Origin: Winogradskyella forsetii
Lineage (GTDB): Bacteria; Bacteroidota; Bacteroidia; Flavobacteriales; Flavobacteriaceae
Length of the DNA stretch: 64,000 nucleotides
Reading direction: 5' to 3'
Assembly (NCBI RefSeq): GCF_013394595.1
Contig: NZ_CP053348.1
Coordinates: 1,550,001 to 1,614,000, forward strand
In this document: positions 21,360 through 51,975 of the stretch, one piece after another
Numbering within the stretch: position 1 is the stretch's first letter
Layout of the letters: every line of letters starts with the position of its first letter
Translations under genes and position numbers: made by a program
Notes under the pieces: model-generated
Told to the model about the DNA's origin: nothing
Seen by the model: the letters and a program-made list of their open reading frames with translations, nothing else
Database searches by the model: none

Positions 21360-21379
21360 GTCTTACTTGTAAGAATAAT

Positions 21380-21800: not shown

Positions 21801-21832
21801 AAACTCCCTTAATTAATTTCTTGTAATTCATA

Positions 21833-21870
21833 TTGATTTTTAATCAATTTACTTATGTTTGAAACATAAG
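21833..21870 (+). promoter_or_regulatory. Promoter of the R-M operon with a perfect palindrome over the -7 element
   Basis: TTG (21833-21835), an 18-nt spacer and TATGTTTG (21854-21861) match the Bacteroidota promoter pattern TTG-N17-23-TAnnTTTG. The -7 box sits inside a perfect 19-bp palindrome, 21852-21870 (9-bp arms around a central G). A dimeric repressor or the HsdM/HsdS complex could bind there. The predicted start site would leave a leader of only about 12-15 nt before the hsdR ATG at 21882. Confidence 0.65.
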
Positions 21871-21881
21871 CACTACTATTT

Positions 21882-24956: not shown

Positions 24957-24963
24957 AAAAACA

Positions 24964-26598
24964 ATGACAAAAGAAGATATAAATAAGCAACCCTTTGTAA
25001 CCAGAACAAAAGCACTTATAGACGAGCTTAAAGCTGTATGTGCAAGTTATGGTTTAGGAAACGACGGAAACGAATTTAAAATTATTAGTCAAATATTTTT
25101 ATATAAGTTTTTAAACGACAAGTTTGCTTACGAGATTAAACAATTAAAGCCAGAATTGGCAAATAATGACCATTGGGAAGCAGAATTGGCTAACATGAAA
25201 GACAGCGACTATAACATGTTGCAATTTCAGTTAGGCGAAGCCACAGCGTTTTTAAAACCGCATCATTTGATTGGGTATTTGTTTGAAAGACAAAACGAAC
25301 CCGATTTTGCCAAATTGGTAGATGATACCTTAATAGATATCGCAGTTTTAAACAACGATTTATTTGCTGTAAAGACTGAAGATGGACAAAAAATACAATT
25401 GTTTGATCGTCTTACAGAATATGTAAGTAGTAAACGCGATGGTTTTGCAGTAGCTTTATTAAATAAGTTGGTGATTTTTAATTTTGAAAATATTATGGGA
25501 GAAGGTTTTGACTTTTTCTCAACCATTTTTGAGTATTTAATAAAAGATTACAACTCTGATGCTGGCGGAAAATACGCAGAGTATTATACACCACACGCAG
25601 TTTCTAAAATTATAGCCAATATATTAGTGCCAGAACCAACAAGCAATGTTACAATTTACGATCCTAGTGCAGGATCTGGTACGCTTTTAATGAATTTAGC
25701 ACACGCAATTGGGGCAGATAAATGCACGGTATATTCACAGGATATATCACAAAAATCGTCTAATTTATTACGTTTAAACTTAGTGTTAAACAACTTGGTA
25801 CATAGTATAGAAAATGTGATACAAGGTAACACCATGACAGATCCTTACCATAAAAAGGATAATAAATTAAGACAGTTTGACTATATCGTATCCAATCCTC
25901 CATTTAAGTTAGATTTTAGTGATGATGTAGATACACTAAATAAAAAGGAAAATAAAACCCGCTTTTTTGCAGGCATACCAAATGTGCCAAAAAAAGCAAA
26001 GGATAAAATGGCAATTTACACCTTGTTTTTGCAACACATTATCCATTCTATGCGAGCAGGAACTGGTAAGGCTGCTATTGTAGTGCCAACTGGTTTTATA
26101 ACCGCACAATCTGGTGTAGATAAAAAAATACGCCAAAAAATAGTGGATGGCAAGATGTTAGCAGGTGTGGTAAGTATGCCTTCTAATATTTTTGCAACAA
26201 CAGGAACTAACGTTTCGATTGTGTTTATGGATGCAGCAAATAAAGAGGATGTGGTTTTAATTGATGCCTCAAATTTAGGGACAACAGTTAAAGAAGGTAA
26301 AAACCAAAAAACAGAATTAATTGATGTAGAAGAAGACCAAATTATAGACACATTTACCAAAAAAGAAGCCAAAGACGATTTTTCTGTAGTGGTGAGTTAT
26401 GAAGAAATAAAAGCTAAAAACTATAGCTTAAGTGCAGGACAATACTTTGAAGTTAAAATTGAATATATAGATATTACTGCGGAAGAGTTTGCTAGTAAAA
26501 TGGACAGTTTTGAAAGTAATTTAGAAACACTTTTTACTGAAAGTAGAGATTTGGAAAATGAGATTCAGGATAATTTGAAGAGTTTAAGGTATGAGTAA
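24964..26598 (+). CDS. hsdM: Type I DNA methyltransferase (M subunit)
   Basis: 544 residues; N6-adenine methyltransferase of the HsdM family. The helical HsdM N-domain (about 1-140) precedes the catalytic domain, with the SAM-binding motif DPSAGSGTLL (about 233-242) and the catalytic NPPF (about 311-314). The C-terminal helices contact HsdS. With HsdS it methylates the recognition site and protects host DNA; with HsdR it forms the restriction complex. It starts 7 bp after hsdR and its last 8 bp overlap hsdS, which implies translational coupling. Confidence 0.97.
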   Translation: MTKEDINKQPFVTRTKALIDELKAVCASYGLGNDGNEFKIISQIFLYKFLNDKFAYEIKQLKPELANNDHWEAELANMKDSDYNMLQFQLGEATAFLKPHHLIGYLFERQNEPDFAKLVDDTLIDIAVLNNDLFAVKTEDGQKIQLFDRLTEYVSSKRDGFAVALLNKLVIFNFENIMGEGFDFFSTIFEYLIKDYNSDAGGKYAEYYTPHAVSKIIANILVPEPTSNVTIYDPSAGSGTLLMNLAHAIGADKCTVYSQDISQKSSNLLRLNLVLNNLVHSIENVIQGNTMTDPYHKKDNKLRQFDYIVSNPPFKLDFSDDVDTLNKKENKTRFFAGIPNVPKKAKDKMAIYTLFLQHIIHSMRAGTGKAAIVVPTGFITAQSGVDKKIRQKIVDGKMLAGVVSMPSNIFATTGTNVSIVFMDAANKEDVVLIDASNLGTTVKEGKNQKTELIDVEEDQIIDTFTKKEAKDDFSVVVSYEEIKAKNYSLSAGQYFEVKIEYIDITAEEFASKMDSFESNLETLFTESRDLENEIQDNLKSLRYE

Positions 26599-27988
26599 AA
26601 CTATCCAAATAAATGAAATTGCGATTCTAAATAAAGAGACTTATAAAAAAAGTGAAATTCCTAAAACTCTATATTATTTAGATACTGGAAGCCTAACTAA
26701 AAACAAAATAGAATCCTTACAAGAATTTAATACATCTAAAGATAAAGTACCTAGTCGAGCGCAAAGAAAAGTACAAATAAACACTATTCTGTATTCAACT
26801 GTAAGACCTAATCAAGAGCACTATGGGATTATTGAAAATGAAATAGAAGATGTCGCTGTATCAACAGGATTCACAACAATTGATGTGGATAATGAAAATG
26901 TTTATCCAAAGTATTTATATTATATGTTAACTCAAAACCACCTTACTGAGTATTTACATTCAATTGCTCAAAATAGTGTGTCTTCTTATCCTTCAATTTC
27001 TTCTAATGATTTAGGTTCATTGACTTTTGATATTCCAGAAATTGAAATTCAAAAACAAATAGCCAAAGTCCTTTCCAATATAGACGCCAAAATAGAAGTC
27101 AACAACAAAATAAACCAAGAGTTAGAAGCTATGGTAAAAACGCTGTACGATTATTGGTTTGTACAGTTTGATTTTCCAGATGCTAATGGTAAGCCTTATA
27201 AATCGTCTGGTGGTAAAATGGTTTTTAATGAGGAATTAAAACGTGAAATTCCTGAGGGTTGGGAAGTTGATGCTTTGTCTACATGGATTAAAAATGATAA
27301 AAGTGGAGATTGGGGAAAAGCAGAAGAACAAGGTAATTATATAAACAAAGTGTCTTGTATTCGTGGTGCAGATTTAAATGGACTAAACGGTAAAGGAGTT
27401 GTTAAAAGTCCAACACGTTTTGTATTAGAAAAAAACAGTCACAAATTATTAGAAATAGGAGATTTTATAATTGAAATTTCTGGAGGAAGTCCAACTCAAT
27501 CAACAGGTAGAATGGCTTTCATAACAAAAGAAACTTTAGAGCGATTTGAAAACCCTTTAATCTGTTCTAACTTTTGTAAAGCTGTAACATTAAAAGATGA
27601 AAAAGCACTATATAATTTCGCTTATCTATGGAATAGATTATATGATGCAGACGTTTTATTTGGATGGGAAGGAAAAACAAGTGGGATAAAAAATTTATTA
27701 TTTGAATCGTTTGTTACTAACTATCAAGTGGCCAATCCTGACTCTATAATTATGGAGCAGTTTTACAATAAGGCAAAACCAATTCACTCACAAATTCAAA
27801 CAAACTTAAAACAAAATCAAAAACTCTCAGAGCTTAGGGATTGGTTGTTGCCTATGTTAATGAATGGGCAGGTGCGCGTAGCACATTCTCATACAGAAGG
27901 GAATCTTGCCAAAGTAAAGCAATCTTATAAAGTAAATACCAAAACTGATTTGGGTAGGGTTGCAGAAGAAGGAGAAACTTATAATTAA
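26591..27988 (+). CDS. hsdS: Type I specificity subunit (S subunit)
   Basis: 465 residues with two target-recognition domains, each followed by a conserved coiled-coil spacer: TRD1 about 1-150, helix about 155-190 (QKQIAKVLSNIDAKIEVNNK), TRD2 about 215-400, and a second helix about 405-435 ending LRDWLLPMLMNGQV. HsdS chooses the bipartite DNA site. TRD1 begins almost at the N-terminus (IQINEIAILN). The start codon overlaps the hsdM stop by 8 bp. The DNA for its conserved C-terminal helix is repeated about 1.4 kb downstream, which suggests recombination has taken place here. Confidence 0.93.
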   Translation: MSKTIQINEIAILNKETYKKSEIPKTLYYLDTGSLTKNKIESLQEFNTSKDKVPSRAQRKVQINTILYSTVRPNQEHYGIIENEIEDVAVSTGFTTIDVDNENVYPKYLYYMLTQNHLTEYLHSIAQNSVSSYPSISSNDLGSLTFDIPEIEIQKQIAKVLSNIDAKIEVNNKINQELEAMVKTLYDYWFVQFDFPDANGKPYKSSGGKMVFNEELKREIPEGWEVDALSTWIKNDKSGDWGKAEEQGNYINKVSCIRGADLNGLNGKGVVKSPTRFVLEKNSHKLLEIGDFIIEISGGSPTQSTGRMAFITKETLERFENPLICSNFCKAVTLKDEKALYNFAYLWNRLYDADVLFGWEGKTSGIKNLLFESFVTNYQVANPDSIIMEQFYNKAKPIHSQIQTNLKQNQKLSELRDWLLPMLMNGQVRVAHSHTEGNLAKVKQSYKVNTKTDLGRVAEEGETYN

Positions 27989-27995
27989 TTTGTAG

Positions 27996-29213
27996 ATGAA
28001 TTATACTTACATTTTACTTTCAGAAGTACAGACTATTGTAAATAGTTATTCTAGGATAAATAAAATGTCTGGACAAAATTTCAATTTATTCACCTTACTT
28101 AGAAAAGAAAGTGATGAGGTGAGATTGCATTCTAAGTTTATTTCAGAATTATTAGATCCGCAAGGTTCTCATCAACAAGGTACATTATTTCTAGATTCTT
28201 TTTTAGATAAACTGGGTATTAAAGATTTCGAAACTCAAAATGCTACATCTCATATAGAATACTACACAGGTATTATTAATAAGGATAAAGATTTAGGAGG
28301 TAATATAGATATACTTATTCGCTCTGATAATAACAAAGTGATCAAAATTGAAAATAAGATTTACGCAAAGGAGCAAGAAAATCAACTTTTGAGATATTAT
28401 AATTTTCAGAATGATGGGCACTTAATGTTTTTGACTTTAAATGGAAAATTAAGTGATGACCATAAGGATTTAGAAATCAGAAATATAGAATATCAACCAA
28501 TTTCTTATCGAAAAGATATAACAGAATGGCTACAGGTTTGTATAGAGAAATGTGCAACGGTCCCTATAGTTAGAGAAAGTATTGTTCAGTATCTAAATTT
28601 GGTCAAAAAGCTAACACATCAAAATATAAATAGTAAAATGAGTAAAGAAATAGCCGAAAAAATTACCAAAAGCAAAGATAGTTTTGAAGCATATTTAGCA
28701 TTGCGTAAATCAGAAAATGATAATGAGATTTACTTTGATATTGCATGTAAACACTTAATTCCGTTTTTTGAAGATTTTGCTAATAAGAATAATTTGACAT
28801 TTAAGAATTTATATAAAAGTCTCATAGAAAAAAGAGAGCGATATAGTGGTTTTTTCTTTACTAATAGCGATTTACAAAAATATGGCTTAAAATTGTCTGT
28901 ACAGTTTCATAACTCATTTAATAGAGATTTATATTATGGACTTTCATTTGTAACTGAAAATCCAGAAAACCAACCTGTTCACGATATTATTGCAAAAGAA
29001 GCAAGACTTGTTATGGATAAACCTAATCCACCTAATAATTGGTGGTTATGTAATAGTTTTTGGCGAGAGTATAGAGATTTGGGAGAGATTGAGACTTTAT
29101 ATAATATCGCTTATGGTAATTTTCAAAAAGAATTTTCATCTAAGCTAAGTGAGGTTTTAGAAATGTTTAGTTCGGCTGTATATAATTATGAGAATGGAAA
29201 TATTTCAAATTGA
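27996..29213 (+). CDS. PD-(D/E)XK nuclease family protein
   Basis: 405 residues. The N-terminal half matches the PDDEXK_4-type nuclease family: LHSKFISELLDPQGSHQQG, then GGNIDILIRS (catalytic Asp) and IKIENKIYAKEQENQL (Glu-x-Lys in ENK, followed by the conserved QL). The C-terminal half (about 210-405) is helical with aromatic patches (GFFFTNSDLQKYGLKL, NNWWLCNSFWREY) and unassigned. Such genes often accompany R-M systems and may act as accessory restriction nucleases. It follows hsdS by 7 bp and lies between hsdS and a duplicated hsdS tail, so it probably entered as part of a cassette. Confidence 0.75.
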   Translation: MNYTYILLSEVQTIVNSYSRINKMSGQNFNLFTLLRKESDEVRLHSKFISELLDPQGSHQQGTLFLDSFLDKLGIKDFETQNATSHIEYYTGIINKDKDLGGNIDILIRSDNNKVIKIENKIYAKEQENQLLRYYNFQNDGHLMFLTLNGKLSDDHKDLEIRNIEYQPISYRKDITEWLQVCIEKCATVPIVRESIVQYLNLVKKLTHQNINSKMSKEIAEKITKSKDSFEAYLALRKSENDNEIYFDIACKHLIPFFEDFANKNNLTFKNLYKSLIEKRERYSGFFFTNSDLQKYGLKLSVQFHNSFNRDLYYGLSFVTENPENQPVHDIIAKEARLVMDKPNPPNNWWLCNSFWREYRDLGEIETLYNIAYGNFQKEFSSKLSEVLEMFSSAVYNYENGNISN

Positions 29214-29328
29214 ACAACTCTCAGACCTTAGGGATTGGTTATTACCTATGCTTATGAATGGGCAGGTTACTGTTGGTGAGGCTAAAGAACAGTTGGGTAT
29301 GGTTGCGGAGGAGGGAAAAAAGTTATAG
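29194..29328 (+). pseudogene. Orphan hsdS 3' end (duplicated C-terminal helix)
   Basis: The open frame 29194-29328 encodes EQLSDLRDWLLPMLMNGQV followed by a short tail ending VAEEGKKL. The core is nearly identical to the end of the upstream HsdS (SELRDWLLPMLMNGQV) and its tail resembles the HsdS end (GRVAEEGETYN). It overlaps the nuclease gene's last 20 bp in another frame. This is a remnant of a second hsdS or a by-product of the event that placed the nuclease gene here. Confidence 0.8.
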
Positions 29329-29340
29329 TAAAAATAAAGT

Positions 29341-29922
29341 ATGGCTAAAAAGAAACAAAAGATAAAAGTAATGATAGCCTCAACCGTTTATGGATTTGAA
29401 AATGAGCTTTCTGCTATTGTTGCTCAATTATCTACTTTAAAATACGATGTAATTAATTCTCATCATGGTACAGTAAAAGTTAACCCAAATCTTTCTAACC
29501 TAGATAATTGTTTAAAAGCAGTCGAAGAATGTGATTTTTTTGTTGGTATTATTAGGCCTTATTATGGTACAGGTAACATTGACGATTTAAATATAACTTT
29601 TGAAGAAATTAAAACAGCAATAAAACTAGGTAAACCGTATTGGTTTTTGGTACATAGAGATGTGGTTTTTAGTAGATTGTTGCTTGGTAAAATTGAATGT
29701 AAAGATGGTAAAGGCTATATCATAAAAAAGAACAGATTTTTTGACGAACGCTCTATTGATATTTACAATCATGTGATTAAAGATGGAGAGCCTGTGGCTT
29801 TAAGGAATGGTAATTGGGCACAAGAATTTTATAGGTTAGATGAAGCAATGACCTATATACAAGCACAGTTTGGCGATAAAGAATTTATAGAGAGTTTAAT
29901 TAAAGATAGTGAAGATGAATAA
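29341..29922 (+). CDS. DUF4062 domain protein
   Basis: 193 residues. The start KIKVMIASTVYGFENELSAI and the segment CDFFVGIIRPYYGTG are typical of DUF4062. That domain has a Rossmann-like, TIR/SLOG-type fold and is often found as a sensor module in prokaryotic conflict systems. The C-terminal part holds WAQEFYRLDEAMTYIQAQFGD. Its stop overlaps the start of the next gene (AlbA_2 ATPase), so the two are translationally coupled and probably work together. The link to defence is inferred from the family and the neighbouring R-M genes; its biochemical activity is unknown. Confidence 0.75.
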   Translation: MAKKKQKIKVMIASTVYGFENELSAIVAQLSTLKYDVINSHHGTVKVNPNLSNLDNCLKAVEECDFFVGIIRPYYGTGNIDDLNITFEEIKTAIKLGKPYWFLVHRDVVFSRLLLGKIECKDGKGYIIKKNRFFDERSIDIYNHVIKDGEPVALRNGNWAQEFYRLDEAMTYIQAQFGDKEFIESLIKDSEDE

Positions 29923-31357
29923 TAGCTTTATAGTAAAAAATTTACTTGCTAAAGAAGAAGGTACACGCTTAGAGTTTAAAGCTGATGTGTCTCAAGCTGC
30001 TATTGCTAAAATTGTTACAAGCTTTATTAATACAGAAGGAGGAGATGTAATTATTGGTATAGATGACGATAAAGAGGTAATTGGTATTGAACATGCAGAA
30101 AGAAAGCTAAGCTCGTTACAGCAAACCTTATTAGAAAGCATAAAACCAGAAGCACCAATTTCTTTTCAAATAATAAATTATAAAAACAAAGATGTTATTC
30201 TTATAAGTACTTGGGAAGGTGCTAACAAACCTTATCAATTTAAGAATATTATTTATGTAAGAGAAAAGGCTACAACCAAAGTTTCTGATGTTAATTCGAT
30301 AACAAATTTAATAGCTGAACGCAAAAATGCAGACTTTCATTGGGAACGTAGAACTGTACTTGCAGCAGAATTAGATAATTTATCTCAAACAGAGATAGAG
30401 AAAACAATAGTTTTATATAAACAAAGATACACTAAAGCAACTATTTTAGACAATGAAGATTTTTTAGTGCAAACTGGACTTGTTAGAAATAATAATTTAA
30501 CCAATGCATGTGTGCTTTTGTTTGCAAGTTTACCTTTACGTTTTATTCCACAATCACCAATTAGAATTACTGTATTTCCAGGAAGTGAAACAGGAGATAC
30601 TTTCTTAGGAGATCGATTATTAAATAGAAATATATTTGAAAATATTGAAGATGCTTTAGATTATCTTGATATCGTTTTTGGTAAAACAATTGAAGTTGTA
30701 GATAATTTAAGAACAGAGAGGCACAATTATCCTCAGTTAGCTATTAGAGAAGCTCTTATGAATGCTGTAGTGCATAGAGATTATAATTCTGTAAATAGCT
30801 TTCTTCAAATTAATGTTTTTGCTGATAGAACTGAGATTTCTAATTATGGAACACTACCAGAAGGGATTACCATTAAAGATTTAAAAAAAGAGCATAATTC
30901 TATTCTTAGAAATCCAGATATTGCTCAAATATGTTTTACAAGACGCTATATAGAAATGTTAGGTAGCGGTACATTGAGAATGATTAATGATTGTAAGATA
31001 AATGGTTTTAAAACTCCTAAATGGGAAGAAGGAGATAAAACATTTAAAGTAATCTTTGAAGGTGTAAAACACAAAAACTCAAATGAGGGAGTAAATGAGG
31101 GAGTAAATGAGGGAGTAAAATATATAGTTTTTAAAGATATAAATGAGGGAGTAAATAAGACACTTAATGATGTACTTGGTATTATAAGAAATAACCCAGA
31201 ATTAAATACAAATGAAATAGCTAATCAAATAGGTAAAGGTGTATCTACAACAGAAAGATATCTTAAACTATTAAAAGAAGAAAATCTAATAGTTTTCTTA
31301 GGTTATCCTAAAACAGGAGGTTATGTGTTAAAAGAGCATTTAGATAGGTTGAAATAG
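29915..31357 (+). CDS. AlbA_2/Schlafen-domain putative DNA-binding protein with GHKL ATPase-like domain
   Basis: About 480 residues; I prefer the ATG at 29915 to the in-frame GTG at 29909. The N-terminus is a Schlafen AlbA_2 domain (EGTRLEFKAD, INTEGGDVIIGIDDD). The middle has the HATPase_c_4 signature (REALMNAVVHRDYNSV, about residue 280; MLGSGTLRM about 350). The C-terminus is a winged helix (about 410-470, LNTNEIANQIGKGVSTTERYLKLL). The linker carries three 12-bp repeats of AATGAGGGAGTA (EGVN units), which stay in frame. Often annotated as RecG-like or transcriptional regulator. It forms a pair with DUF4062 behind the R-M operon. Confidence 0.8.
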   Translation: MNNSFIVKNLLAKEEGTRLEFKADVSQAAIAKIVTSFINTEGGDVIIGIDDDKEVIGIEHAERKLSSLQQTLLESIKPEAPISFQIINYKNKDVILISTWEGANKPYQFKNIIYVREKATTKVSDVNSITNLIAERKNADFHWERRTVLAAELDNLSQTEIEKTIVLYKQRYTKATILDNEDFLVQTGLVRNNNLTNACVLLFASLPLRFIPQSPIRITVFPGSETGDTFLGDRLLNRNIFENIEDALDYLDIVFGKTIEVVDNLRTERHNYPQLAIREALMNAVVHRDYNSVNSFLQINVFADRTEISNYGTLPEGITIKDLKKEHNSILRNPDIAQICFTRRYIEMLGSGTLRMINDCKINGFKTPKWEEGDKTFKVIFEGVKHKNSNEGVNEGVNEGVKYIVFKDINEGVNKTLNDVLGIIRNNPELNTNEIANQIGKGVSTTERYLKLLKEENLIVFLGYPKTGGYVLKEHLDRLK

Positions 31358-31364
31358 TGAAAAA

Positions 31365-31505
31365 GTGCATCCGCAATTTGTAAAATATTACCATAGAAAA
31401 CATAAAACAAAAACCTTCTTCTTAAACCAACTAAGTAACAACGAAGAAGCGCTTTTTAATTACATAAATATCAACAGAGATAATCTAGATGAAGTTATAC
31501 AATAG
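31365..31505 (+). pseudogene. Short orphan open frame, coding-like remnant
   Basis: From a possible GTG at 31365, about 46 codons (KYYHRKHKTKTFFLNQLSNNEEALF...) run to TAG 31503-31505. The residue content looks like protein, but I do not recognise it and it has no convincing start or RBS. It probably belongs to gene debris between two defence genes. Confidence 0.3.
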
Positions 31506-31591
31506 TATAAACCATAACACGAGTTTTAACCAGTGAACACCTAACGTTTTTTAATAGCAAGTGAGATTAAAAGAGGTTTAAAATTAACGCA

Positions 31592-31717
31592 GAGGTTATC
31601 AGCCAATTAAAGCAAGAATTAGACTTGTATCGCTTGTATGCAAAAGATGATGCATTTTACCAAGCATTTTTTGATCCGATGAAGCGTATGGCGAATACAA
31701 GAAATAATATAGAATAA
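31592..31717 (+). pseudogene. Truncated open frame, C-terminal remnant of an unknown protein
   Basis: An open frame without a start codon encodes EVISQLKQELDLYRLYAKDDAFYQAFFDP and ends at TAA 31715. It looks like the helical C-terminus of a larger protein, possibly a lost restriction or helicase gene. No matching upstream part remains. Confidence 0.35.
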
Positions 31718-31770
31718 AGTTTAAAACCAATAATAACAATTTAATAAACCCCCAAAAATTAAAACTAAAA

Positions 31771-32643
31771 ATGAAATATTTATCTACTTCAGCATTAGCT
31801 AAAGAAAGACAATTAGATTCAAAAGAATTATTTAAAAAGTTAAAAGCAAAAGGTTGGATTTATAGAAAAGACGACTCTTGGCAATTAACAAAAAATGGTC
31901 GTGTTGCAGGAGGTGACACTAAATACAATCCAAAGTTTGGCGAATATGTTGTTTGGCCATTCAATTTAAATATTGAAATGGAAGTAGATTCCAATAACTT
32001 ATTAAATGCAACCAAAATAGGTGATCATTTTAATGTCTCAAACAGAAAAGTGAACTCGTACTTCTCGGATTTGGGTTGGATTCAAAAAGATCGAGATGGC
32101 TGGATTACAACAAAACCAGGAATTAAGAATGGTGGTCATCAAATGGAATTGAAAAATGGAGTACCCTTCGTGCTATGGGATAATGAGGTGCTTACTAATA
32201 AACACTTAATTAGAACCATTGGAATAGGCGAGGGCACACAAGAGGATAACGATAGTGAAATAGCCGAAAAAGACAAAGAATTAATAGATATTAGGAAAAA
32301 ATATCCTGCGGAAAAACGAACTTCGGACGGACATTATGTGAGAAGTCGTGCAGAGCTACTTATTGATAATTTCTTCTATAGGAATGGAATAGTCCACGCC
32401 TATGAAAAGAAATTAAATATAGAAGAGGTACTATATTGTGACTTTTATTTACCTGAAAATAAAATATATATTGAATATTGGGGAATGGAAGACGATAAAA
32501 AATATTTGGCTAGAAAAAAAAGAAAGTTAGAATTGTATGCGCAAAATGGTTTTACCTTAGTTGAATTAAATGACTCAGATGTTGAAAATCTAGAAGAAAA
32601 TTTAGAATCAAAATTAAGGAAGGTAGGATTAGTAATTAATTGA
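31771..32643 (+). CDS. Putative winged-helix plus PD-(D/E)XK-like nuclease
   Basis: 290 residues. The N-terminal ~130 residues hold two similar helix-turn units (STSALAKERQLDSKELFKKL and NLLNATKIGDHFNVSNRKVN), each followed by a W-(I/Q)-...-K-x-G segment, suggesting a duplicated DNA-binding domain. The C-terminal part has RSRAELLIDNFF, YCDFYLP and KIYIEYWG, with the E...D...E pattern of a restriction-endonuclease-like fold; a Trp occupies the position after the last Glu where Lys is usual. A role in defence or DNA processing is inferred from fold and place. It has its own 5' gap and no coupled neighbour. Confidence 0.6.
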   Translation: MKYLSTSALAKERQLDSKELFKKLKAKGWIYRKDDSWQLTKNGRVAGGDTKYNPKFGEYVVWPFNLNIEMEVDSNNLLNATKIGDHFNVSNRKVNSYFSDLGWIQKDRDGWITTKPGIKNGGHQMELKNGVPFVLWDNEVLTNKHLIRTIGIGEGTQEDNDSEIAEKDKELIDIRKKYPAEKRTSDGHYVRSRAELLIDNFFYRNGIVHAYEKKLNIEEVLYCDFYLPENKIYIEYWGMEDDKKYLARKKRKLELYAQNGFTLVELNDSDVENLEENLESKLRKVGLVIN

Positions 32644-32648
32644 AAAAT

Positions 32649-32963
32649 ACCATCGTCACTGCAGGTACGAAGTATCTCAGAAAGCACAACTTAGAAAGAT
32701 CACTTCGTACCTTGCGATGGCGTTTCGATTTGTGTTTTTCATGATAATAGACCAAGTATTTAAAGGCTCGTGAATAGGGGAGCGTATTTTGGATAAAATG
32801 AAAGATTTTGTACAGGTGTTTGTTAATGGGATGACTGGGTAATTACTTCTGAATTAAACAAGATTGAAATGCACTTAAAGGATTTAAGTGGGTTAAGATT
32901 TTAAAAGTGTAAAATTTTTGTCATATTAATAGCGAGTAAATTATATATAAGAAGAATTATTGG
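32649..32963. repeat. REP-like inverted repeat and gap before the five-gene operon
   Basis: CCATCG (32650) pairs with CGATGG (32715), and GGTACGAAGT (32664) pairs with ACTTCGTACC (32701), giving an outer and an inner stem. The CGTCACTGCAGGTACGAAG-type arm resembles the GTCATTGCGAG...CGAAGCAATC repeats seen near 39,900, 44,150 and 47,120. The rest, to 32963, holds a short coding-like scrap ending at about 32904 and no clear promoter. Confidence 0.65.
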
Positions 32964-33467
32964 ATGATAAAGATTGGAATAATAGGGCCTAATAAATCGG
33001 TTTGTGGGAATGATTTGTATAATTTTGGAGAAAACCTAGGCAAAGTTATAGCGCAAAAAGGCCGTGTATTTTTAAATGGAGGCGCAGGTGGTTTTATGGA
33101 AGCTGTTAGTAAAGGAGTAAAATCATCTAAAGAAACTTTCGACGGGCAAACAATAGGTGTTCTGCAAGGAGACAGTGCTGAAGACGCTAATGAATTTATA
33201 GATATAGCCATACCAACAGGTATGGGAATAGCACGGAATATGATTTTAATAAATAGCTCGGATATTATTATCGCAGCAGGAGGAGGAGCAGGTACATTGT
33301 CCGAATTAGCTTTTGCATGGCAAAAAAAGAAAATAGTTTTATGTGTCACAGAATTTGGCGGCTGGTCTAAGGAATTAGCAGGAAAAAATCTAGATCATAG
33401 ATTGAAAGATTTATTAATTCCCGTGAAGACGATTGAGGATATTGAAAAATATATTAAACAGATGTAA
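32964..33467 (+). CDS. LOG/TIGR00725-type SLOG-superfamily protein
   Basis: 167 residues with a Rossmann-like fold. The motifs GIIGPNKSVCGNDLY, GGAGGFMEAVSKG and AGGGAGTLSELAFAW match the SLOG superfamily (LOG/lysine-decarboxylase-like and TIGR00725 proteins), where the GGxGT(x)xE signature binds nucleotides. Plant-type LOG enzymes release cytokinin bases from nucleotides; other SLOG proteins are proposed sensors or hydrolases of nucleotide signals. This protein lacks the PGGxGT sequence of classic LOG and is closer to TIGR00725. It is first in a five-gene operon and ends 6 bp before the glycosyltransferase fusion, so it may supply or process a nucleotide-linked intermediate. Confidence 0.75.
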   Translation: MIKIGIIGPNKSVCGNDLYNFGENLGKVIAQKGRVFLNGGAGGFMEAVSKGVKSSKETFDGQTIGVLQGDSAEDANEFIDIAIPTGMGIARNMILINSSDIIIAAGGGAGTLSELAFAWQKKKIVLCVTEFGGWSKELAGKNLDHRLKDLLIPVKTIEDIEKYIKQM

Positions 33468-33473
33468 AAGTAT

Positions 33474-36287
33474 ATGGTTGTTTTTACAGTTGTAGTTACT
33501 CATGATAGAGTAAAATTATTAAAAAGAGCACTCAAATCTATTCATAATCAAGTTCGGAAACCAAACTTCGTAATCGTAGTTTCTAATTCTCAACAAAAAA
33601 ATCATCTTACAGAGCAACAGATATGTGAGGCTTATAATGTCATTTGGATTAAAAACGAAAGAACAAATAATTATTCAGGAGCTTTAAATACAGGTATAGA
33701 ATATTTTATTAGCAATAACGATATTGTTGATACAGTTTATTTTTCATCACTTGACGATGATGATGAATGGCATATAGATTATCTAGATGCAGTGACTTCA
33801 AATACTACCAATGAGGATATTGTTTTTGCGAACCTCATCAGACAAGATTCAAACATAGCGTCTCTTTTAAAATTACCTAAGCAACTAGATTTTCATAATT
33901 TCTTATATGGCAATCCAGGCGTTGGTGGCTCTAATACTTTTGTAAGATTAAAAACACTATTGAGAGCAGGTGGTTTTGACGAAGCAATGGTAGCTACAGT
34001 AGATAGAGATGTATTTGTAAGGTTATTTCAGTTGAAGCCTACATATAGAGTTCTTGAAAACCATCTCGTAACATTACATGTTGAAAATACGCGTCAGCGC
34101 TTGACAAACAATTTTGAACTCAAAAAAGAGAGTTATAGGTATTTCTACTATAAATATCAGCATATTATGACTTCTCTAGATAAGCAACGTTTTTTTAGCA
34201 GAGCAAAAAGAGTATTTGAATTTGAAGAAAAAGATATTGTTGTTTCTAATATAAACCAGCAATTAGGCAATAGGCAAGATATACTATTTAATGATCATAA
34301 AGATTTTGACTTCATTGTAGGCTTTATCGCCGGAGATAAAAAAATCGCAGAAAGAATTATTGACTCTATTATACAAAAAACAATTAGAGTAGATAAACTT
34401 TTGATAATAGATAATCTATCATTTTTAGATGGGTTTGATGATGTAAAAAAAAAATTAGTCAAATCTAAAATAGACTTTGTAATTGTGCATAAAGCGGATT
34501 GGGAGACTAATTTAAAATTAGGCTATTATGGCACGTACTTTAAAAAGTTTAATAAAATAAACTCTATTCCTATTGGTCGCACAATACTTCAACATCATTT
34601 GTTTACAGAATCTATATCATTTAAAAATCCAGTGTATTGGGTTATAGATGATGATATTACTTTTTCTAATACACATGGGAATAATAAGGGTTCAAAAACA
34701 GATTTGTTTTCTATTATCAATAACTATAAAGATGATTATGATGCCTTAATAGGCAGTGTAAGTAAAGACCCACCATTACCTTTTTTATCATCTATTAGAG
34801 TGCAATTGGTAGATTTAGTTTACAGTTTGTATTCCAATAACCAAGAAGAGTTAGATTTTAATAATCTTAAAGAATTAAAGGATTATTATTATGATATTTC
34901 AGATTCGCATTTTACACATGTTGAATCACCTATTTACTATGGTTCCAATATAGAAAAAGATATCGTTTACATTTTTTCAGGTAAATCAGTTTCTAGGCCT
35001 GTTTTACAAAAAAAAGAGATTAATCATTCGGAAGTTGTTAGTAATCGAGGTCCTAATACCTTGATTTTTAATAGGGATTTGCTGCGATTTTATCCTGTGG
35101 TGAATTTAGAAGTAAATGATAAGTTTGTACGAAGAGGTGATTTGTTTTGGGCGCTTTTAAATCAATCAGTATCTAATAGAAAAATTGCGGAGCATACGTT
35201 TTGTGTTGATCAAAATAGACCTATTCAAAATTTTAGAATAGAGCACGAACTTGATAAATCGGCTAATGATATTATAGGTTATGCATTCAATAAGGCTATA
35301 ATTAAAACAATTGATGAAATAAAACAGAACACGAAACCTAATAGACCAAAGGATATTTATGAAAGGTTAAATGAAGCTGGCTTTTTTAATGTTTTTTTAG
35401 TAGAATATAAAAAGACCATAATAAAAAGAAAGTCTCGTTTTTTAATGAACTATTATAGAATAGCTGGACTACTAGAAATATTAGGCAAAGATTATAATTT
35501 TATAGGGGCTTATGCTAATCAATTTACTGACCTAGTTTTAAAGAAATATTTTATCGATATTATTGAAGTTTCAAAAAACGAAATATTGTTAAAGCAATTT
35601 ATAGAATCTTTAGCGACTACAGTATGGTCTTATACCGATTCAATTAAAAGAAATATAGAAACAACGGATAGTAATAAACAAAAAATTAAAGAGGCATTTG
35701 AGTTAGATACAGATTTAGTCTTGCTAGGAGATGGATCTGAAGGCATCGTTTTTACGGACTATACGTTTGTGTATAAATCATTTTATTCTATAAAAGATTA
35801 TGAATGGGAACTGTTAAAAAACAATAAGTGTGTGTTTTCTAAATGTACTTTGTTAGAATCTTTAGAGCTTGTAGAAAATACAAATGGTAACTATATTAAA
35901 TATCCTTATCATCCTTTTAAATCAATGGATTATGTAGAGGAAGATCAACTCATTTATTTTTTGAGATTCTGTAAAAATAATGGGCTTATATTTTCAAATA
36001 TTAAACCTGTAAATTTTATTGTTATTAATGATAAGGATTTAAAGCTTATAGATTATGGTAGGTCATTTGAACCATATACAGAGCGTAAATATATAAACAT
36101 GATTAAAAGAGCATTTTTAATGCTTAATTATCCTAAAATGTTAGATTTAGAATTTAGGAGTTTAACAGCAAAAATTAATTTAGGTGAAATCCCATTAGAA
36201 ATTAAGGGTTGGGAGAATTTCATGACTAAAGTAATTAATCATAAAGAAAATAAGGAGATTATAAATTCAAAAGAGTTAGTTAAATGA
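33474..36287 (+). CDS. Fusion of two GT-A-like glycosyltransferase domains and a kinase-like domain
   Basis: 937 residues. The N-terminal ~260 residues are a family-2-like GT-A domain: FTVVVTHDRVKLLKRALKSI and an acidic metal motif SSLDDDDEW (Asp94-97). Residues about 280-600 form a second GT-A-like domain (DFIVGFIAGDKKIAERIIDSI, YWVIDDDITF, and a later NRGPNTLIFNRDLL). The C-terminal ~190 residues look like a protein-kinase fold: GDGSEG glycine loop (752-757), VYKSF lysine (768), NGLIFSNIKPVNFIV (about 837-851) and LIDYGRSF (DYG at 860). In the catalytic loop HRD is replaced by FSN, so phosphotransfer is doubtful; it may be a pseudokinase. No membrane segments. It overlaps the next gene by 4 bp. 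Confidence 0.65.
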   Translation: MVVFTVVVTHDRVKLLKRALKSIHNQVRKPNFVIVVSNSQQKNHLTEQQICEAYNVIWIKNERTNNYSGALNTGIEYFISNNDIVDTVYFSSLDDDDEWHIDYLDAVTSNTTNEDIVFANLIRQDSNIASLLKLPKQLDFHNFLYGNPGVGGSNTFVRLKTLLRAGGFDEAMVATVDRDVFVRLFQLKPTYRVLENHLVTLHVENTRQRLTNNFELKKESYRYFYYKYQHIMTSLDKQRFFSRAKRVFEFEEKDIVVSNINQQLGNRQDILFNDHKDFDFIVGFIAGDKKIAERIIDSIIQKTIRVDKLLIIDNLSFLDGFDDVKKKLVKSKIDFVIVHKADWETNLKLGYYGTYFKKFNKINSIPIGRTILQHHLFTESISFKNPVYWVIDDDITFSNTHGNNKGSKTDLFSIINNYKDDYDALIGSVSKDPPLPFLSSIRVQLVDLVYSLYSNNQEELDFNNLKELKDYYYDISDSHFTHVESPIYYGSNIEKDIVYIFSGKSVSRPVLQKKEINHSEVVSNRGPNTLIFNRDLLRFYPVVNLEVNDKFVRRGDLFWALLNQSVSNRKIAEHTFCVDQNRPIQNFRIEHELDKSANDIIGYAFNKAIIKTIDEIKQNTKPNRPKDIYERLNEAGFFNVFLVEYKKTIIKRKSRFLMNYYRIAGLLEILGKDYNFIGAYANQFTDLVLKKYFIDIIEVSKNEILLKQFIESLATTVWSYTDSIKRNIETTDSNKQKIKEAFELDTDLVLLGDGSEGIVFTDYTFVYKSFYSIKDYEWELLKNNKCVFSKCTLLESLELVENTNGNYIKYPYHPFKSMDYVEEDQLIYFLRFCKNNGLIFSNIKPVNFIVINDKDLKLIDYGRSFEPYTERKYINMIKRAFLMLNYPKMLDLEFRSLTAKINLGEIPLEIKGWENFMTKVINHKENKEIINSKELVK

Positions 36288-37084
36288 TTAATACGTTAAA
36301 AAAGTTTATAACTATCAAGACGATTGCTAATAATAGAGAAGCAAACCTTGAAGGAATTAATTTAGTTAAAGGTTTATTAGAAAAAATAGGTTTTACAATA
36401 TCGATAGAAGGCGATAGTCCTTATAATCAACCTGTAATAATAGCTAAGTATATTAATGTTAATTCGTCAAAAAAAGTAACATTGTATAATCATTATGACG
36501 TTGAAAAAATAAATAAAAAAGAAAAATGGAAAACAGACCCTTTTGTTCTAACTGAAATTGAAGGTCGGTACTATGCAAGAGGAATAGCAGATAATAAAGG
36601 TATACTTATATGCCGCATATTTGCCTTTTTGGAAATGAAAGAAAAAGGATTTGAAATACCAAATATATTGTGGATTATTCAAGGTGAAGAAGAGGTTGCA
36701 GGAAAAACACCTTTTGAAGTGATACCAAAACATATTGCCGAATTTGGTTCTAAAATATATGTTGAAGAAACAGGAGTTGGTAAAGGAGAAATACCAGTTA
36801 TCTTTTATTTACCAGTGACTAAAAAACAGCCTTCTTACTTAACAGAATTAAACAATGTTATATATAACGGTGACGCTATTTTTGATAATAGGAGCTTAAA
36901 TAAATTCACAAAATGTCCTTTTGTTTCTAATATACCAGAGGGTGGCATTTATATTGGTTTTGGTCCCAATGACGGTAAATGCAACATACATAGAGAAAAT
37001 GAAAGTTTAGATACTATAAAATTAGAAAAACATAAAGAGGTGTTTACGCAATTTATACAATGGATTAATAAGGCTGAAATATAA
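36284..37084 (+). CDS. Short M20-family metallopeptidase-like protein
   Basis: 266 residues. All five M20 metal-ligand positions look present: NHYDV (His70, Asp72), ARGIADNKG (Asp103), QGEEEVAG (catalytic Glu and ligand, 135-137), VEETG (about 161) and IHRENE (His236). Classic M20 enzymes have about 400 residues because a dimerisation (lid) domain is inserted after the fourth ligand; here only about 70 residues separate VEETG from IHREN, so the lid is missing or vestigial. It may hydrolyse or deacylate an amide on a biosynthetic intermediate. It starts inside the end of the fusion gene (ATGA overlap) and ends 2 bp before the AsnB-like gene, so it is part of one transcript. Confidence 0.75.
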   Translation: MINTLKKFITIKTIANNREANLEGINLVKGLLEKIGFTISIEGDSPYNQPVIIAKYINVNSSKKVTLYNHYDVEKINKKEKWKTDPFVLTEIEGRYYARGIADNKGILICRIFAFLEMKEKGFEIPNILWIIQGEEEVAGKTPFEVIPKHIAEFGSKIYVEETGVGKGEIPVIFYLPVTKKQPSYLTELNNVIYNGDAIFDNRSLNKFTKCPFVSNIPEGGIYIGFGPNDGKCNIHRENESLDTIKLEKHKEVFTQFIQWINKAEI

Positions 37085-37086
37085 AT

Positions 37087-38520
37087 ATGTGCGGTATTGC
37101 TGCTTTAATAGGAAATCATAATTCCCACGCTATCCATAAATGTCTAAGGCTTTTAAGTCATAGAGGTAAAGATGGTTCTAATATATATCAGGATAATAAT
37201 ATAGCCATAGGTTTTAATCGTTTGGCAATTAACGATGAATCTGAAAAAGGAATGCAACCATTTGAGTTTGGAGACTATATTGGTGTATTTAACGGAGAGA
37301 TTTTTAATTTTAAATCTTTGGCAAAAGAAAATAACATCTCATTAGTCTCTGAATGCGATACCGAAATTATTTTACCCTTATTTGCTAAATATGGAGGAGA
37401 AGTAATTCATCTTTTAGATGGGTTCTATTCAGGCTTAATATATCATAAAACAACTCATAATGTATATACAGTTAGGGATTATATTGGAAAAAAACCGCTC
37501 TTTTACGGTTCTAGTGTATCATCTAAATTTATTGCTAGTGAGTTAAAGTGTATTAGTGAAATAGAAAACTTTGAATTTGTTCCAAAGGGGTTTTCTATTA
37601 TAGATAATAATTCAATTTCAAATAATATAAAGCATCAGTTTTTAGATAAATCACCATTAGATTTAAAAGAAATAATTATAAAGGCTATCGAAAAGAGGAT
37701 TCCTGAAAACAGAGATATACCTGTTGGTGTTTTTTTAAGTGGTGGAATCGATAGTTCTATAATAGCATCAATTGTGAATACGTTAACTAAAAATGTGATT
37801 TATTATTCGCTCGTAGATTTTGAGAGTGAAGATTATAAATTTGTTCAAGAATTATCAGTTTTTTTAGGTATTGAAGAGCAATTAATAATGGTTTCATTGC
37901 CTGATCCAGATGAATTAGATCAGTTAATAGATCAGTTGGTTTATCAAACAGAAAGTTATAATCCGTCTATAATAAGTAATGGTTTAGCCACATATCTTTT
38001 ATCTAAATCGGCTTCAAAAGATGGTTTAAAAGTGATATTATCAGGAGAAGGAGCAGATGAGCTATTTTGTGGTTATAAAATTTCTAAGGATGCAGAAGTA
38101 ACTAGGAATAAAAGTAAAACTTTGATTAATAATTTACACTTTACTGAGTTAAGACGATTAGATTTGGCATCAATGGCTAAAACTATTGAAGTAAGGTGTC
38201 CTTTTTTAGATAAACAAGTTTATGAAGCTTCCTTAGATTTATCAATAAAGCAGCTAACAGATAAACAAGTATTGAGAGATTTGTTTATGGAAGAGTTACC
38301 AAAAGATATTATATCTCGTAAAAAAACTGCATTCGATGTTGGTTCAGGTATTAGAAAATTAGTAGTAGAGCATCTTTGTCATAATAATGAATTGGAGAGA
38401 CAGTCTTTAAAAAAAATATGGTCTAAATATTATCCGGAAAGACTATTCGTAGAGGATTATTTCCATCAATACCCTGTTTTTGATGATGCAATAGACAAAA
38501 GAGGGATCAAACATAGATAA
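37087..38520 (+). CDS. Asparagine synthetase B-like amidotransferase
   Basis: 477 residues with both domains of glutamine-hydrolysing AsnB. The class II amidotransferase domain has Cys2 (MCGIAAL) as nucleophile, LSHRGKDG and FNGEIFN. The synthetase domain (from about 200) has the PP-loop VFLSGGIDSS and SGEGADELFCGY. AsnB makes asparagine from aspartate, ATP and glutamine; many homologues in gene clusters amidate other carboxylates or condense an amine with an acid. It is shorter than housekeeping AsnB (about 520-550 from memory). Its location between a peptidase-like and an N-acyltransferase-like gene favours a dedicated biosynthetic role. Confidence 0.9.
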   Translation: MCGIAALIGNHNSHAIHKCLRLLSHRGKDGSNIYQDNNIAIGFNRLAINDESEKGMQPFEFGDYIGVFNGEIFNFKSLAKENNISLVSECDTEIILPLFAKYGGEVIHLLDGFYSGLIYHKTTHNVYTVRDYIGKKPLFYGSSVSSKFIASELKCISEIENFEFVPKGFSIIDNNSISNNIKHQFLDKSPLDLKEIIIKAIEKRIPENRDIPVGVFLSGGIDSSIIASIVNTLTKNVIYYSLVDFESEDYKFVQELSVFLGIEEQLIMVSLPDPDELDQLIDQLVYQTESYNPSIISNGLATYLLSKSASKDGLKVILSGEGADELFCGYKISKDAEVTRNKSKTLINNLHFTELRRLDLASMAKTIEVRCPFLDKQVYEASLDLSIKQLTDKQVLRDLFMEELPKDIISRKKTAFDVGSGIRKLVVEHLCHNNELERQSLKKIWSKYYPERLFVEDYFHQYPVFDDAIDKRGIKHR

Positions 38521-38521
38521 G

Positions 38522-39199
38522 TTGAGTACCATCGATAAAGTAGAGTCATTATTATTAGACGAATTTAAAACGGTTCCGTTTCACAACCTGTTTATGTTAA
38601 ATAATATTCAGAATAAACAATTGTCTTTAGGAGGCACTTGTTCTGATAAAGTTTTAAGGTTTAAGGAGGTATTATATAAAAATTATATTAATAGTAATCT
38701 ACATTCGTCTTTTATTAATGGCATAGAATGTCATAGAATGCTTTCTGTTATTATCGAGGATAGAAAATACTATATAGATGTGGGTTCAGGTTGGCCATCA
38801 GTAAAACTATTTCCTGAGTTTAAAGAAATAGAATATTCTGCTTATGGTATGAGTTTTAAAACAGAAATAAAGGATAATGAAATTGTTTTATATCACAAAA
38901 CTAAGGCTTCATGTGAGTATAATAGAATGATGGTGATACCTAAAGAATCTAAGTCTCAAGAAGATATTTTATTAGATATTAAAAATAGATTCGTCGATTC
39001 TTCAATTTATCCTTTTCAAGATAGTTTTAGGTTTTCAATAGTGAAGGATCAGATGTTTTATTTTATAAAAGGCTTTCGTTTAAGAGTTTATTCCGATAAC
39101 GAATTGAACGAATATAAGCTAAATAAAAAAGAGGTTTTAAGATTTATAAAAGAAAAATTTAATCTTTTAGAACAGTATTCAAATGTTATACTGAAATAA
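38522..39199 (+). CDS. Arylamine N-acetyltransferase-like (transglutaminase-fold) protein
   Basis: 225 residues, translated from a TTG start one base after the preceding stop. A Cys-His-Asp triad of NAT type is visible: GGTCSDKVLRF (Cys40), GIECHRMLSVII (His71) and RKYYIDVGSGWPS (Asp86). The His-to-Asp spacing of 15 equals that of classical NATs (107/122), and VPFHNLFMLNN recalls the segment before the active Cys. NATs move acyl groups from CoA to amines; related enzymes close amides in natural-product pathways. The protein is shorter than typical NATs (about 270-280), missing part of the C-terminal lid. It is the last gene of the five-gene operon. Confidence 0.65.
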   Translation: MSTIDKVESLLLDEFKTVPFHNLFMLNNIQNKQLSLGGTCSDKVLRFKEVLYKNYINSNLHSSFINGIECHRMLSVIIEDRKYYIDVGSGWPSVKLFPEFKEIEYSAYGMSFKTEIKDNEIVLYHKTKASCEYNRMMVIPKESKSQEDILLDIKNRFVDSSIYPFQDSFRFSIVKDQMFYFIKGFRLRVYSDNELNEYKLNKKEVLRFIKEKFNLLEQYSNVILK

Positions 39200-39207
39200 A
39201 ATATTAA

Positions 39208-39730
<523 letters not shown>

Positions 39731-43711: not shown

Positions 43712-44125
<414 letters not shown>

Positions 44126-45300: not shown

Positions 45301-46284
45301 ATGGCTATGCTAAAACGAACATATTGTCCAGGTACGCTTTCGAAGAATCATTCTAGCTATAGTAATACGGCATTGAAGCGTGTGTTCAATGGACGGAAAG
45401 TAAGTCCCATATTGCCTTACGATTCACCAGCAAGCAATGAACAAACAGCTGTATTATTTACTGAAAACAGAAAACGTATATCTATTTCTGGTGTTCAGGA
45501 AAAATTTTCAGTCTTATTAGAAAAAAATAAATTGCGTTTAATAACAGAAGGGGAACAAGGCCAATACATTTTAAAACCTATACCAAATGTTGGTAAAAAT
45601 GCCAGCCAAATGCCAGCTAACGAACATGTCACCATGCAAATTGCGCGTCAGGTGTTTGCAATGGAAACTGCTGAAAATGCACTCATATTTTTTAAGAATG
45701 GAGAGCCAGCTTATATTACCAAACGTTTTGATGTTAAGGACGATAGCACTAAATGGGCTCAAGAAGATTTTGCGTCTTTGGCAGGTAGAACACCACAAAC
45801 GCATGGTGAAGATTTTAAATATTCGGGTAACTACTTAGCGCTTTTTACGCTATTAAAAAAATACACACCAGCTTATACTGTAGAATCTGTCAAATTATTT
45901 AAGTTGATACTTTTTAATTATTTGTTTTCAAATGGTGATGCACATTTTAAGAACTTTTCTTTAATTGAAACGCCTTTAGGAGATTTTAGGTTAAGTCCGG
46001 CATACGATTTATTAAATAGCAGATTGCACATAGACGACAAGGAGTTTGCACTAGACGATGGTTTATTGCCACTTCATTTGGCAAAAGGCAGAGTGACAGC
46101 GCAGTTTTATAAATTAGGGGAAGAAGCAGGAATTGTAAAAAGGCAAGTAGAAAAAGTGTTTACGGATTTAACGTCCAAACAAAATGATGTGGAAACATTA
46201 ATAGAGGCTTCGTTTTTAGATGAAAAGGCAAAACGAAATTACAAACAAGCTTACCAAACAAGATTAAATAAACTACTACGTTAA
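45301..46284 (+). CDS. HipT/HipA-like serine/threonine kinase toxin
   Basis: 327 residues matching the HipA C-terminal kinase. The P-loop-like segment RISISGVQEKFSVLL (about 61-75) holds the serines that HipT autophosphorylates. The catalytic loop SNGDAHFKNFSLI (about 211-223) keeps the Asp and Asn, and the metal-binding motif is SPAYDLLNS (about 233). These kinases phosphorylate aminoacyl-tRNA synthetases (GltX for HipA, TrpS for the E. coli HipT) and stop growth; the target here is unknown. Its stop overlaps the start of a decayed hsdR (TAATG), so the toxin set once led into a type I R-M operon. Confidence 0.85.
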   Translation: MAMLKRTYCPGTLSKNHSSYSNTALKRVFNGRKVSPILPYDSPASNEQTAVLFTENRKRISISGVQEKFSVLLEKNKLRLITEGEQGQYILKPIPNVGKNASQMPANEHVTMQIARQVFAMETAENALIFFKNGEPAYITKRFDVKDDSTKWAQEDFASLAGRTPQTHGEDFKYSGNYLALFTLLKKYTPAYTVESVKLFKLILFNYLFSNGDAHFKNFSLIETPLGDFRLSPAYDLLNSRLHIDDKEFALDDGLLPLHLAKGRVTAQFYKLGEEAGIVKRQVEKVFTDLTSKQNDVETLIEASFLDEKAKRNYKQAYQTRLNKLLR

Positions 46285-46753: not shown

Positions 46754-46971
46754 TAAGCAATAACTATTTAAGGTTATAAGTAGAACAATCTATTTATTAG
46801 TTTTTAAAATTATTTATGATGACTTCATACAGAGATGAAGATCAAATTCAGGCAGACAACGACAATCATGCTATCTAGTGAAGCAAATGCTGTTTAACGA
46901 GAATTATTTTTTTGAAGTATTTTTGGGAATATTATGCGACATTAAAACTATAAATAAGTAAACGCCTCCAA
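46754..46971. other. Gap between hsdR debris and repeat C
   Basis: AT-rich, no gene, no RNA and no terminator recognised. Confidence 0.4.
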
Positions 46972-47250
46972 ATGACCGTCAACCAACTACCAGGAACCTA
47001 CAACATTGTAGGTAGCAACCAAGACGAAACGGCATAGCTTACAAAGGTGTGTTAGAATTAGTCTTACATGAACACAACAACGAGAACTCGTTAATTGAAT
47101 TCTGGTATTTAGATCGGAGTTGTTTTTTATGCCATTGCGAGACTAACGAAGCAATCTTACCAAACAAGATAAAAGCAAGATACAAACAGCCACAAAAAAA
47201 TCTCATAGGGCAAAACCCACCCAACTTTACCACAACACGACCCAAGTGTT
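46972..47250 (+). pseudogene. Repeat copy C gene: internally deleted 120-residue protein
   Basis: Starts ATGACCGTCAACCAACTACC like copies A and B. It has a 1-base loss in GACGAAACGGC (GACGAAAACGGC in A), and then jumps from ...TGAACACAAC directly to AACGAGAACTCG, skipping about 230 bp that are present in copy B. The deletion ends lie in similar ACACAA words, pointing to slippage or short-homology recombination. The gene is dead, although the 3' repeat continues intact. Confidence 0.85.
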
Positions 47251-51619: not shown

Positions 51620-51729
51620 GATTCTTTTTATGTAAAGTAATTAGCTTCGCTGATTCTACGCGAGGTGAGCTATACAATAGTAAAAGTCCACAACGCTAAG
51701 GCGTTGCTATGGCCTTTTTTTATGCTTGT
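51620..51729. repeat. Perfect 110-bp direct repeat, first copy
   Basis: Identical over all 110 bases to 51795-51904; start-to-start distance 175 bp. It ends in a small hairpin AACGC/GCGTT followed by GCTATGGCCTTTTTTTATGC, which looks like a terminator. Confidence 0.95.
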
Positions 51730-51965: not shown

Positions 51966-51975
51966 TTTACTGCTG

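Follow-up and report, generated by a model that had tools for sequence, protein, structure and literature searches.

A candidate mobile small-molecule cassette in Winogradskyella forsetii, built around a fused glycosyltransferase, mutase-like and kinase-fold protein

Introduction

What would a bacterium make with a SLOG protein, a large glycosyltransferase-containing fusion, an M20 metallohydrolase, an AsnB-like amide synthetase and a NAT-fold protein, all encoded back to back? The question is raised by an operon of Winogradskyella forsetii, which we analyzed within a stretch of 64,000 nucleotides (positions 1,550,001-1,614,000 of the one-contig 4.51-Mb genome; hereafter, the window). An earlier note had described a tight five-gene operon on one strand, and we reproduced its five plus-strand open reading frames (ORFs) with gaps of 6, -4, 2 and 1 bp (Table 1). 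The explanation that we favor, at a probability of about 0.5, is a horizontally mobile small-molecule cassette with probable nucleotide input. Its product would be a cytosolic small molecule that carries a furanose and an amide, with a nucleotide most likely supplying the base or sugar on which it is built. In the literature searched, mostly papers open without subscription, we found no description of the gene set or of the domain combination of its largest member, the core protein. A term search of PMC10853773 returned nothing on the gene set.

Results

The operon recurs with exchanged tailoring genes

Could the arrangement be fortuitous? One genome-collection scan with two short peptide patterns, which sets a lower bound, yielded 13 loci. 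Winogradskyella pacifica (L011) and W. eximia (L012) have the five genes in the same order and with the same gaps, and their proteins are 83-95% identical to those of the window. In 7 further loci measured, related gene sets are spaced by -35 to 54 bp. Hence, the operon is not a chance arrangement. The earlier note's grouping of families also held elsewhere, with at least four of the five neighboring one another in 8 of the 13 loci: all five in L011, L012, L014, L015 (core ORF split), L017 and L019, and four in L013 and L016, the latter beginning near a contig end. L022 and L023 are cut.

Other loci carry altered versions. L018, L020 and L021 encode SLOG, a polysaccharide deacetylase, a core::methyltransferase fusion and a sulfotransferase; in the 14-23 kb retrieved, M20, AsnB and NAT are absent. 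A deacetylase stands alongside M20, AsnB and NAT in L017, while L014 and L019 have an SDR epimerase and a DUF1152 protein inserted between core and M20. DUF1152 adjoins the core (L014, 4668-5516; L019, 13749-14612) or is fused to it (P0108), a functional link for a domain family of unknown function.

The core protein joins a GT2 domain, a mutase-like domain and a kinase fold

The earlier note had read the core protein as a double glycosyltransferase with kinase-like motifs. The first glycosyltransferase stands: the GT2 match is 40.9 bits (cut-off, 23.3). Its nearest solved folds are the fucosyltransferase WrtF and the nucleoside 3'-O-glucosyltransferase AvpGT; WrtF scores equally well, and the fold match does not decide the acceptor type. 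The second glycosyltransferase does not stand, as this domain resembles a GT75 nucleotide-sugar mutase. Its predicted fold matches MtdL across 302 residues, including the core and helix regions described as unique in the MtdL paper (PMC9937993); like GT75 mutases, it has a GT-A fold with these two regions.

Do the catalytic residues agree? The DDD metal motif is found in 25 of 25 core proteins and in 11 of 12 in a two-clade set, L018 having DND. R442, at the same +48 spacing as the nucleophilic R159 of MtdL, and R553xxD556 (R257xxD260 in MtdL) are invariant in all 25, a comparison of spacing rather than a residue-level superposition. Within the mutase domain, D122, D124, R172, R283, R284 and D286 are invariant (12/12) across two clades despite a permuted domain order. 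Sequence matching gave no link to GT75: no PDB sequence was returned at E values up to 10, RGP was not among the 25 families listed, of 27, for the domain, and a search for RGP (PF03214) in 148 genomes of the phylum found a single match, which scored under the cut-off, and supplied no GT75 sequence for comparison. We conclude that the second domain resembles a GT75/MtdL-like nucleoside diphosphate (NDP)-sugar mutase, a putative activity.

The kinase call was borne out by predicted structure and not by sequence: the Pkinase score is 17.5 bits (cut-off, 31.7), yet the predicted domain has a kinase fold. Where a kinase has its HRD catalytic Asp, 11 of 11 proteins have Asn, and judged by position so do 12 of 12 second-clade proteins. 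In P0201-P0203, about 340 residues of unknown type occupy the place of this domain.

How widespread is the combination? We assembled 240 core proteins, including the window's, from the best 120 of 151 in one search and the best 120 of 636 in another. The first list holds GT2-MUT-KIN (49; MUT, mutase-like; KIN, kinase fold), GT2-MUT-KIN-methyltransferase (52) and GT2-MUT (16), with single proteins adding DUF1152 or M20 and one partial. The second list, whose sources include Pseudoalteromonas, Photobacterium, Shewanella, Vibrio, Alteromonas, Desulfobacter and Myxococcales, is dominated by the order GT2-KIN-MUT (116), with two partials, one odd assignment and one protein (P0286) extended by GTP cyclohydrolase II and NADAR. 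A possible third arrangement lies on a Salinivibrio kushneri plasmid (L031, 7965-11841): a separate GT2 gene and, with a radical SAM gene near, a 1020-aa protein combining a GT2 domain with a segment that resembles the kinase domain (25.5%, E value 2e-6).

The remaining enzymes would fit a proposed soluble, amide-bearing product

The family calls made earlier for the four smaller proteins all exceeded their Pfam cut-offs, and the residues named for three of them are present and conserved. The M20 protein (PF01546, 61.8 bits; cut-off, 24.6) keeps H70, D72, D103, E135, E136, E161/E162 and H236 in 9 of 9 homologues, which at 266-269 aa have no room for the lid (dimerization) domain. The AsnB-like protein matches Asn_synthase (151.9 bits; cut-off, 21) and GATase_7 (83.1; cut-off, 25) and retains Cys2, the SGGxDSS PP-loop and a GEGADE stretch (10/10), together with invariant stretches of its own, TESYNPS..SNGLAT and RxK..DVGSGIRK. 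The NAT protein (PF00797, 33.6 bits; cut-off, 22.8) has its Cys-His-Asp triad in all 20 homologues. AsnB and NAT form a single protein in L014, L015, L016, L019 and also P0063; a term search of a survey of the NAT family (PMC11213898, main text) found no mention of asparagine or amidotransferase.

Two familiar roles for the AsnB-like protein were rejected. It missed the asparagine synthesis model TIGR01536 (asn_synth) narrowly, at 266.8 against 267.1. A lasso peptide cluster, one of the matches that the earlier note had named as refuting its reading, is not matched: the protein scores 96.7 bits against a lasso-cyclase cut-off of 525, and the intergenic gaps are too short for a precursor gene within the operon.

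Might these enzymes decorate the cell surface? The core protein could make a furanosyl unit for lipopolysaccharide or capsule, where it would arrive after amidation, acylation, methylation or sulfation and might, for example, mask phage receptors. The deacetylase, epimerase, sulfotransferase and methyltransferase beside the core in other versions would suit such a pathway, as would the match of the GT2 domain to polysaccharide enzymes and the presence among NCBIfam matches of the exopolysaccharide-cluster AsnB model TIGR03108 (168.5 bits, under its cut-off of 816.9). However, in the five proteins no 19-residue stretch reaches a hydrophobicity of 1.6, and they lack membrane segments; the cassette genes scanned include no flippase, polymerase or transporter family. 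Surface decoration, which the earlier note had also proposed, is weakened by these results. Moreover, neither SLOG nor the GTP cyclohydrolase II::NADAR protein described below has an evident role in it, and several cassettes adjoin restriction or other defense genes. We consider it unlikely. A glycosylated small molecule, the earlier note's first option, fits best: the gene set, the lack of membrane segments, the exchanged tailoring genes and the fusions together point to a soluble furanosylated product.

A nucleotide may enter the pathway

The SLOG protein scores 117.8 bits with TIGR00725 (cut-off, 106.9) and 132.4 with PF18306 (cut-off, 26.3); with the NCBIfam LOG equivalog model it reaches 29.3, under the cut-off of 300. 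All 11 cassette homologues aligned have R91 and E114, whose spacing of 23 is that of R95 and E118 in PtnC, a LOG-like nucleotide nucleosidase of 8-azaguanine biosynthesis whose operon also has a GTP cyclohydrolase I-like gene (PMC7109123). A plasmid of Pseudoalteromonas donghaensis (L030) encodes GTP cyclohydrolase II::NADAR, AsnB and NAT after the core, with gaps of 54, -13 and -4 bp. NADAR domains are N-glycosidases acting on riboflavin intermediates and ADP-ribose derivatives (PMC9503650; PMC5312566), and PMC4921024, in the part available, enters COG3236 as a riboflavin N-glycosidase only. Since the Bacteroidota cassettes have a LOG-superfamily SLOG with a PtnC-like Arg/Glu pair and L030 has the NADAR fusion, two unrelated N-glycosidases may fill one slot. 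The nucleotide-derived metabolite suggested in the earlier note thus gains some support from the Pseudoalteromonas operon, the P0286 fusion and the Arg/Glu pair. We regard nucleotide input as a lead, not a result.

The same domains could be read as parts of an immune system: the other enzymes would make or modify a signal of the NAD or ADP-ribose type, and SLOG or NADAR would sense or destroy it. Both are treated as NAD/ADP-ribose-network domains of conflict systems (PMC9503650), and defense-type genes neighbor some cassettes: putAbiC overlaps the end of the Kordia operon, a TOTE helicase lies 81 bp after the L018 cassette, HipA precedes L017 and Mrr lies about 4 kb before L015. These are individual instances from scans that covered a minority of the neighboring genes; the few neighbors scanned in L013, L020 and L021 are not clearly defense genes. 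On the other side, the cassette proteins scanned include no TIR, cyclase, STAND or effector family, and in a PADLOC scan of SLOG, M20 and core, no model matched the first two and the core gave a weak partial match in the kinase stretch (E value 0.0035). Signal-based immunity is distinctly less probable to us than synthesis of a small molecule, and somewhat less probable than decoration.

The cassette is likely a mobile unit in a variable region

DNA homologous to the window begins 36 bp before SLOG, at 32928, and ends at 39224 in W. eximia or 39551 in W. pacifica, at about 90% identity. Because the neighbors on both sides differ between the window and W. eximia, 32928-39224 is likely the unit that moves. 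Upstream, the window has a type I restriction-modification operon with PDC-S26, then DUF4062 and an SLFN-type protein; in W. pacifica an AAA_5 protein and HsdR stand there, and in W. eximia two GmrSD proteins and HsdR. Downstream, W. eximia DNA matches window 51933-57692, and two stretches of about 100 bp in W. pacifica match 51641-51918; the W. pacifica contig also carries the window's left flank gene, about 36 kb before the cassette. One congener lacks the operon; there, 8.3 kb separate the window's left and right flank genes, and 4.3 kb of other DNA stand in place of the 17.9-kb island. Guanine-plus-cytosine content is 29.0% in the operon and 29-32% in the island pieces measured, against 36-39% outside.

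The mutase domain was matched in 3 of 68 Winogradskyella genomes, own included. With few candidates scored per genome, it was matched in 2 of 395 genomes of the order and 1 of 395 of the phylum, and the NAT protein in 3 of 397 of the family, strongly only in the own genome in each case. A phage origin was rejected: NAT and core have no match in phage records, and viral contigs gave only two distant GT2 matches and none with second-clade or NAT profiles.

Table 1. Coordinates in the window of the operon, its domains and the surrounding DNA
Feature	Position	Strand	Remarks
SLOG / LOG-like protein, predicted nucleotide N-glycosidase	32964-33467	+	TIGR00725, PF18306; Arg91, Glu114
Core protein, 937 aa	33474-36287	+	GT2 (~1-258), GT75/MtdL-like mutase-like (~277-728), protein-kinase fold (~735-922)
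Core GT2 domain	33474-34247	+	Nearest solved folds WrtF, AvpGT
Core GT75-like mutase domain	34302-35657	+	D392-D394, R442, R553xxD556, H574
Core small kinase-fold domain	35676-36239	+	G-rich loop, K768, N847, D860 retained; catalytic Asp replaced by N842
Lid-less M20 metallohydrolase	36284-37084	+	PF01546, conserved metal ligands
AsnB-like glutamine amidotransferase/amide synthetase	37087-38520	+	Cys2 present; profile matches and conserved residues
NAT-fold acyltransferase/amide-forming protein	38522-39199	+	PF00797, Cys-His-Asp triad
DNA common to window and W. eximia copy	32928-39224		90.4% identity; flanking genes differ on both sides
Variable island	21360-39218		Type I restriction-modification, PDC-S26, DUF4062, SLFN, nuclease-like protein, five-gene operon; 4.3 kb of other DNA in congener

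Could the upstream restriction genes be partners of the operon? The five proteins might make a DNA or RNA base modification, with the adjoining HsdR-like protein cutting unmodified DNA. SLOG does start 14 bp past HsdR in both W. pacifica and W. eximia, and the window has its type I operon upstream. However, since homology starts 36 bp before SLOG and the window's upstream neighbors are unlike those of the other two copies, the restriction gene lies outside the moving unit. No DNA-binding or transglycosylase domain was found among the cassette proteins scanned, and in several other loci the neighbors scanned are not restriction genes. Base modification is the least probable of the explanations weighed here, and the small-molecule cassette remains the one we prefer.

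The setting itself is as the earlier note had it, with the type I operon upstream and a repeated 120-aa ORF downstream. Window 21360-51900 varies among congeners; of its outer flanks, the left is conserved in L043 and L046 and the right in L012. The 120-aa ORF (39223-39585), which belongs to no family, has copies at about 43763-44094, partly at 46969-47077, and at L043 6397-6759; it lies where parts of the variable region join and may mark points at which the hotspot recombines. As a repeat found also in a congener without the operon, it was rejected as a sixth operon gene. Just before the cassette (31771-32643) is a 290-aa protein with a marginal antirepressor-type (ANT) match and a C-terminal half that looks nuclease-like by eye. 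A HipA_C-type protein is encoded at 45301-46284 in the same region. An IS21-type pair follows the L019 cassette.

Discussion

How might the pathway run? The data show the gene set and its order, the fusions, the exchanged modules, the conserved residues, the hotspot setting and, by prediction, the folds. Each reaction that follows, like the product and any role in defense, is read from family membership and conserved residues. The pathway would begin with SLOG (in Pseudoalteromonas, GTP cyclohydrolase II and NADAR) cutting the N-glycosidic bond of a nucleoside monophosphate. The MtdL-like domain would convert an NDP-pyranose to an NDP-furanose, and the fused GT2 domain would move the furanose onto an acceptor. 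The kinase-fold domain would bind ATP and either regulate or transfer a group by a chemistry that dispenses with the usual Asp. AsnB might then add glutamine nitrogen to a carboxyl, NAT form or exchange an acyl-amine bond, and M20 strip an acyl or peptidyl group, steps that deacetylation, methylation or sulfation would replace or join in other versions.

Several observations weigh against the nucleotide lead. PtnC cleaves neither GMP nor the GTP cyclohydrolase II product (PMC7109123). Of the 5 plasmid records with a match over at least 80% of GTP cyclohydrolase II::NADAR, 4 lack the core (two of them were inspected, one being unannotated), and the fusion is missing from every Bacteroidota cassette fetched.

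More speculatively, such operons could be widespread, undescribed chemical-defense cassettes, in which a single-chain mutase-plus-transferase core, a kinase-fold domain whose missing catalytic Asp would imply a new ATP chemistry, and enzymes that free a base from a nucleotide yield furanosylated nucleoside-like antimetabolites or alarm molecules and tailoring modules are swapped in defense hotspots; this broader idea we hold to be rather doubtful, if a little less so than decoration. If the favored explanation is right, hundreds of related genome and metagenome proteins form a biosynthetic family that we did not find described, one whose core enzyme produces a furanose donor and also consumes it, and nucleotide-processing domains of immune systems would be tied to true small-molecule synthesis. 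At about 6.3 kb, the operon is expressible and offers a direct test bed for small-molecule defense cassettes carried beside restriction systems.

Comparison with known systems

How does the cassette compare with what has been described? The GT75 mutases MtdL (antibiotic A201A) and Hyg20 (hygromycin) are 15% identical to the core domain and give no profile match; unlike them, the cassette version is fused to GT2 and kinase domains. AvpGT and NucGT, of tubercidin and nucleocidin, offer a parallel for the GT2 domain. AvpGT is a nucleoside-specific GT2 enzyme (PMC11959488), present in the PDB as a 306-residue chain with no further domains, unlike the core. In the Streptomyces ptn pathway for 8-azaguanine, a single operon for an antimetabolite encodes both a GTP cyclohydrolase and a LOG-like nucleotide nucleosidase (PMC7109123). 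Here that likeness is split, the cyclohydrolase lying beside the core in Pseudoalteromonas and the LOG-like SLOG in Bacteroidota; ptn also uses a GTP cyclohydrolase I-like enzyme and nitric oxide synthase, and the part of that paper available names no glycosyltransferase or AsnB. AsnB synthetases (asparagine synthase B, lasso cyclases and N-acetylglutaminylglutamine amidotransferase) share the GATase and PP-loop domains, Cys2 and GEGADE, whereas the cassette AsnB falls under the matched NCBIfam cut-offs and has its own invariant stretches and, in four loci, a NAT fusion. Finally, the RibA::COG3236 protein of Vibrio is the same GTP cyclohydrolase II::NADAR fusion as that of L030 (18364-19371) and the P0286 C terminus. 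It sits in a rib operon (PMC5312566), whereas the cassette fusion shares an operon or a polypeptide with the core glycosyltransferase.

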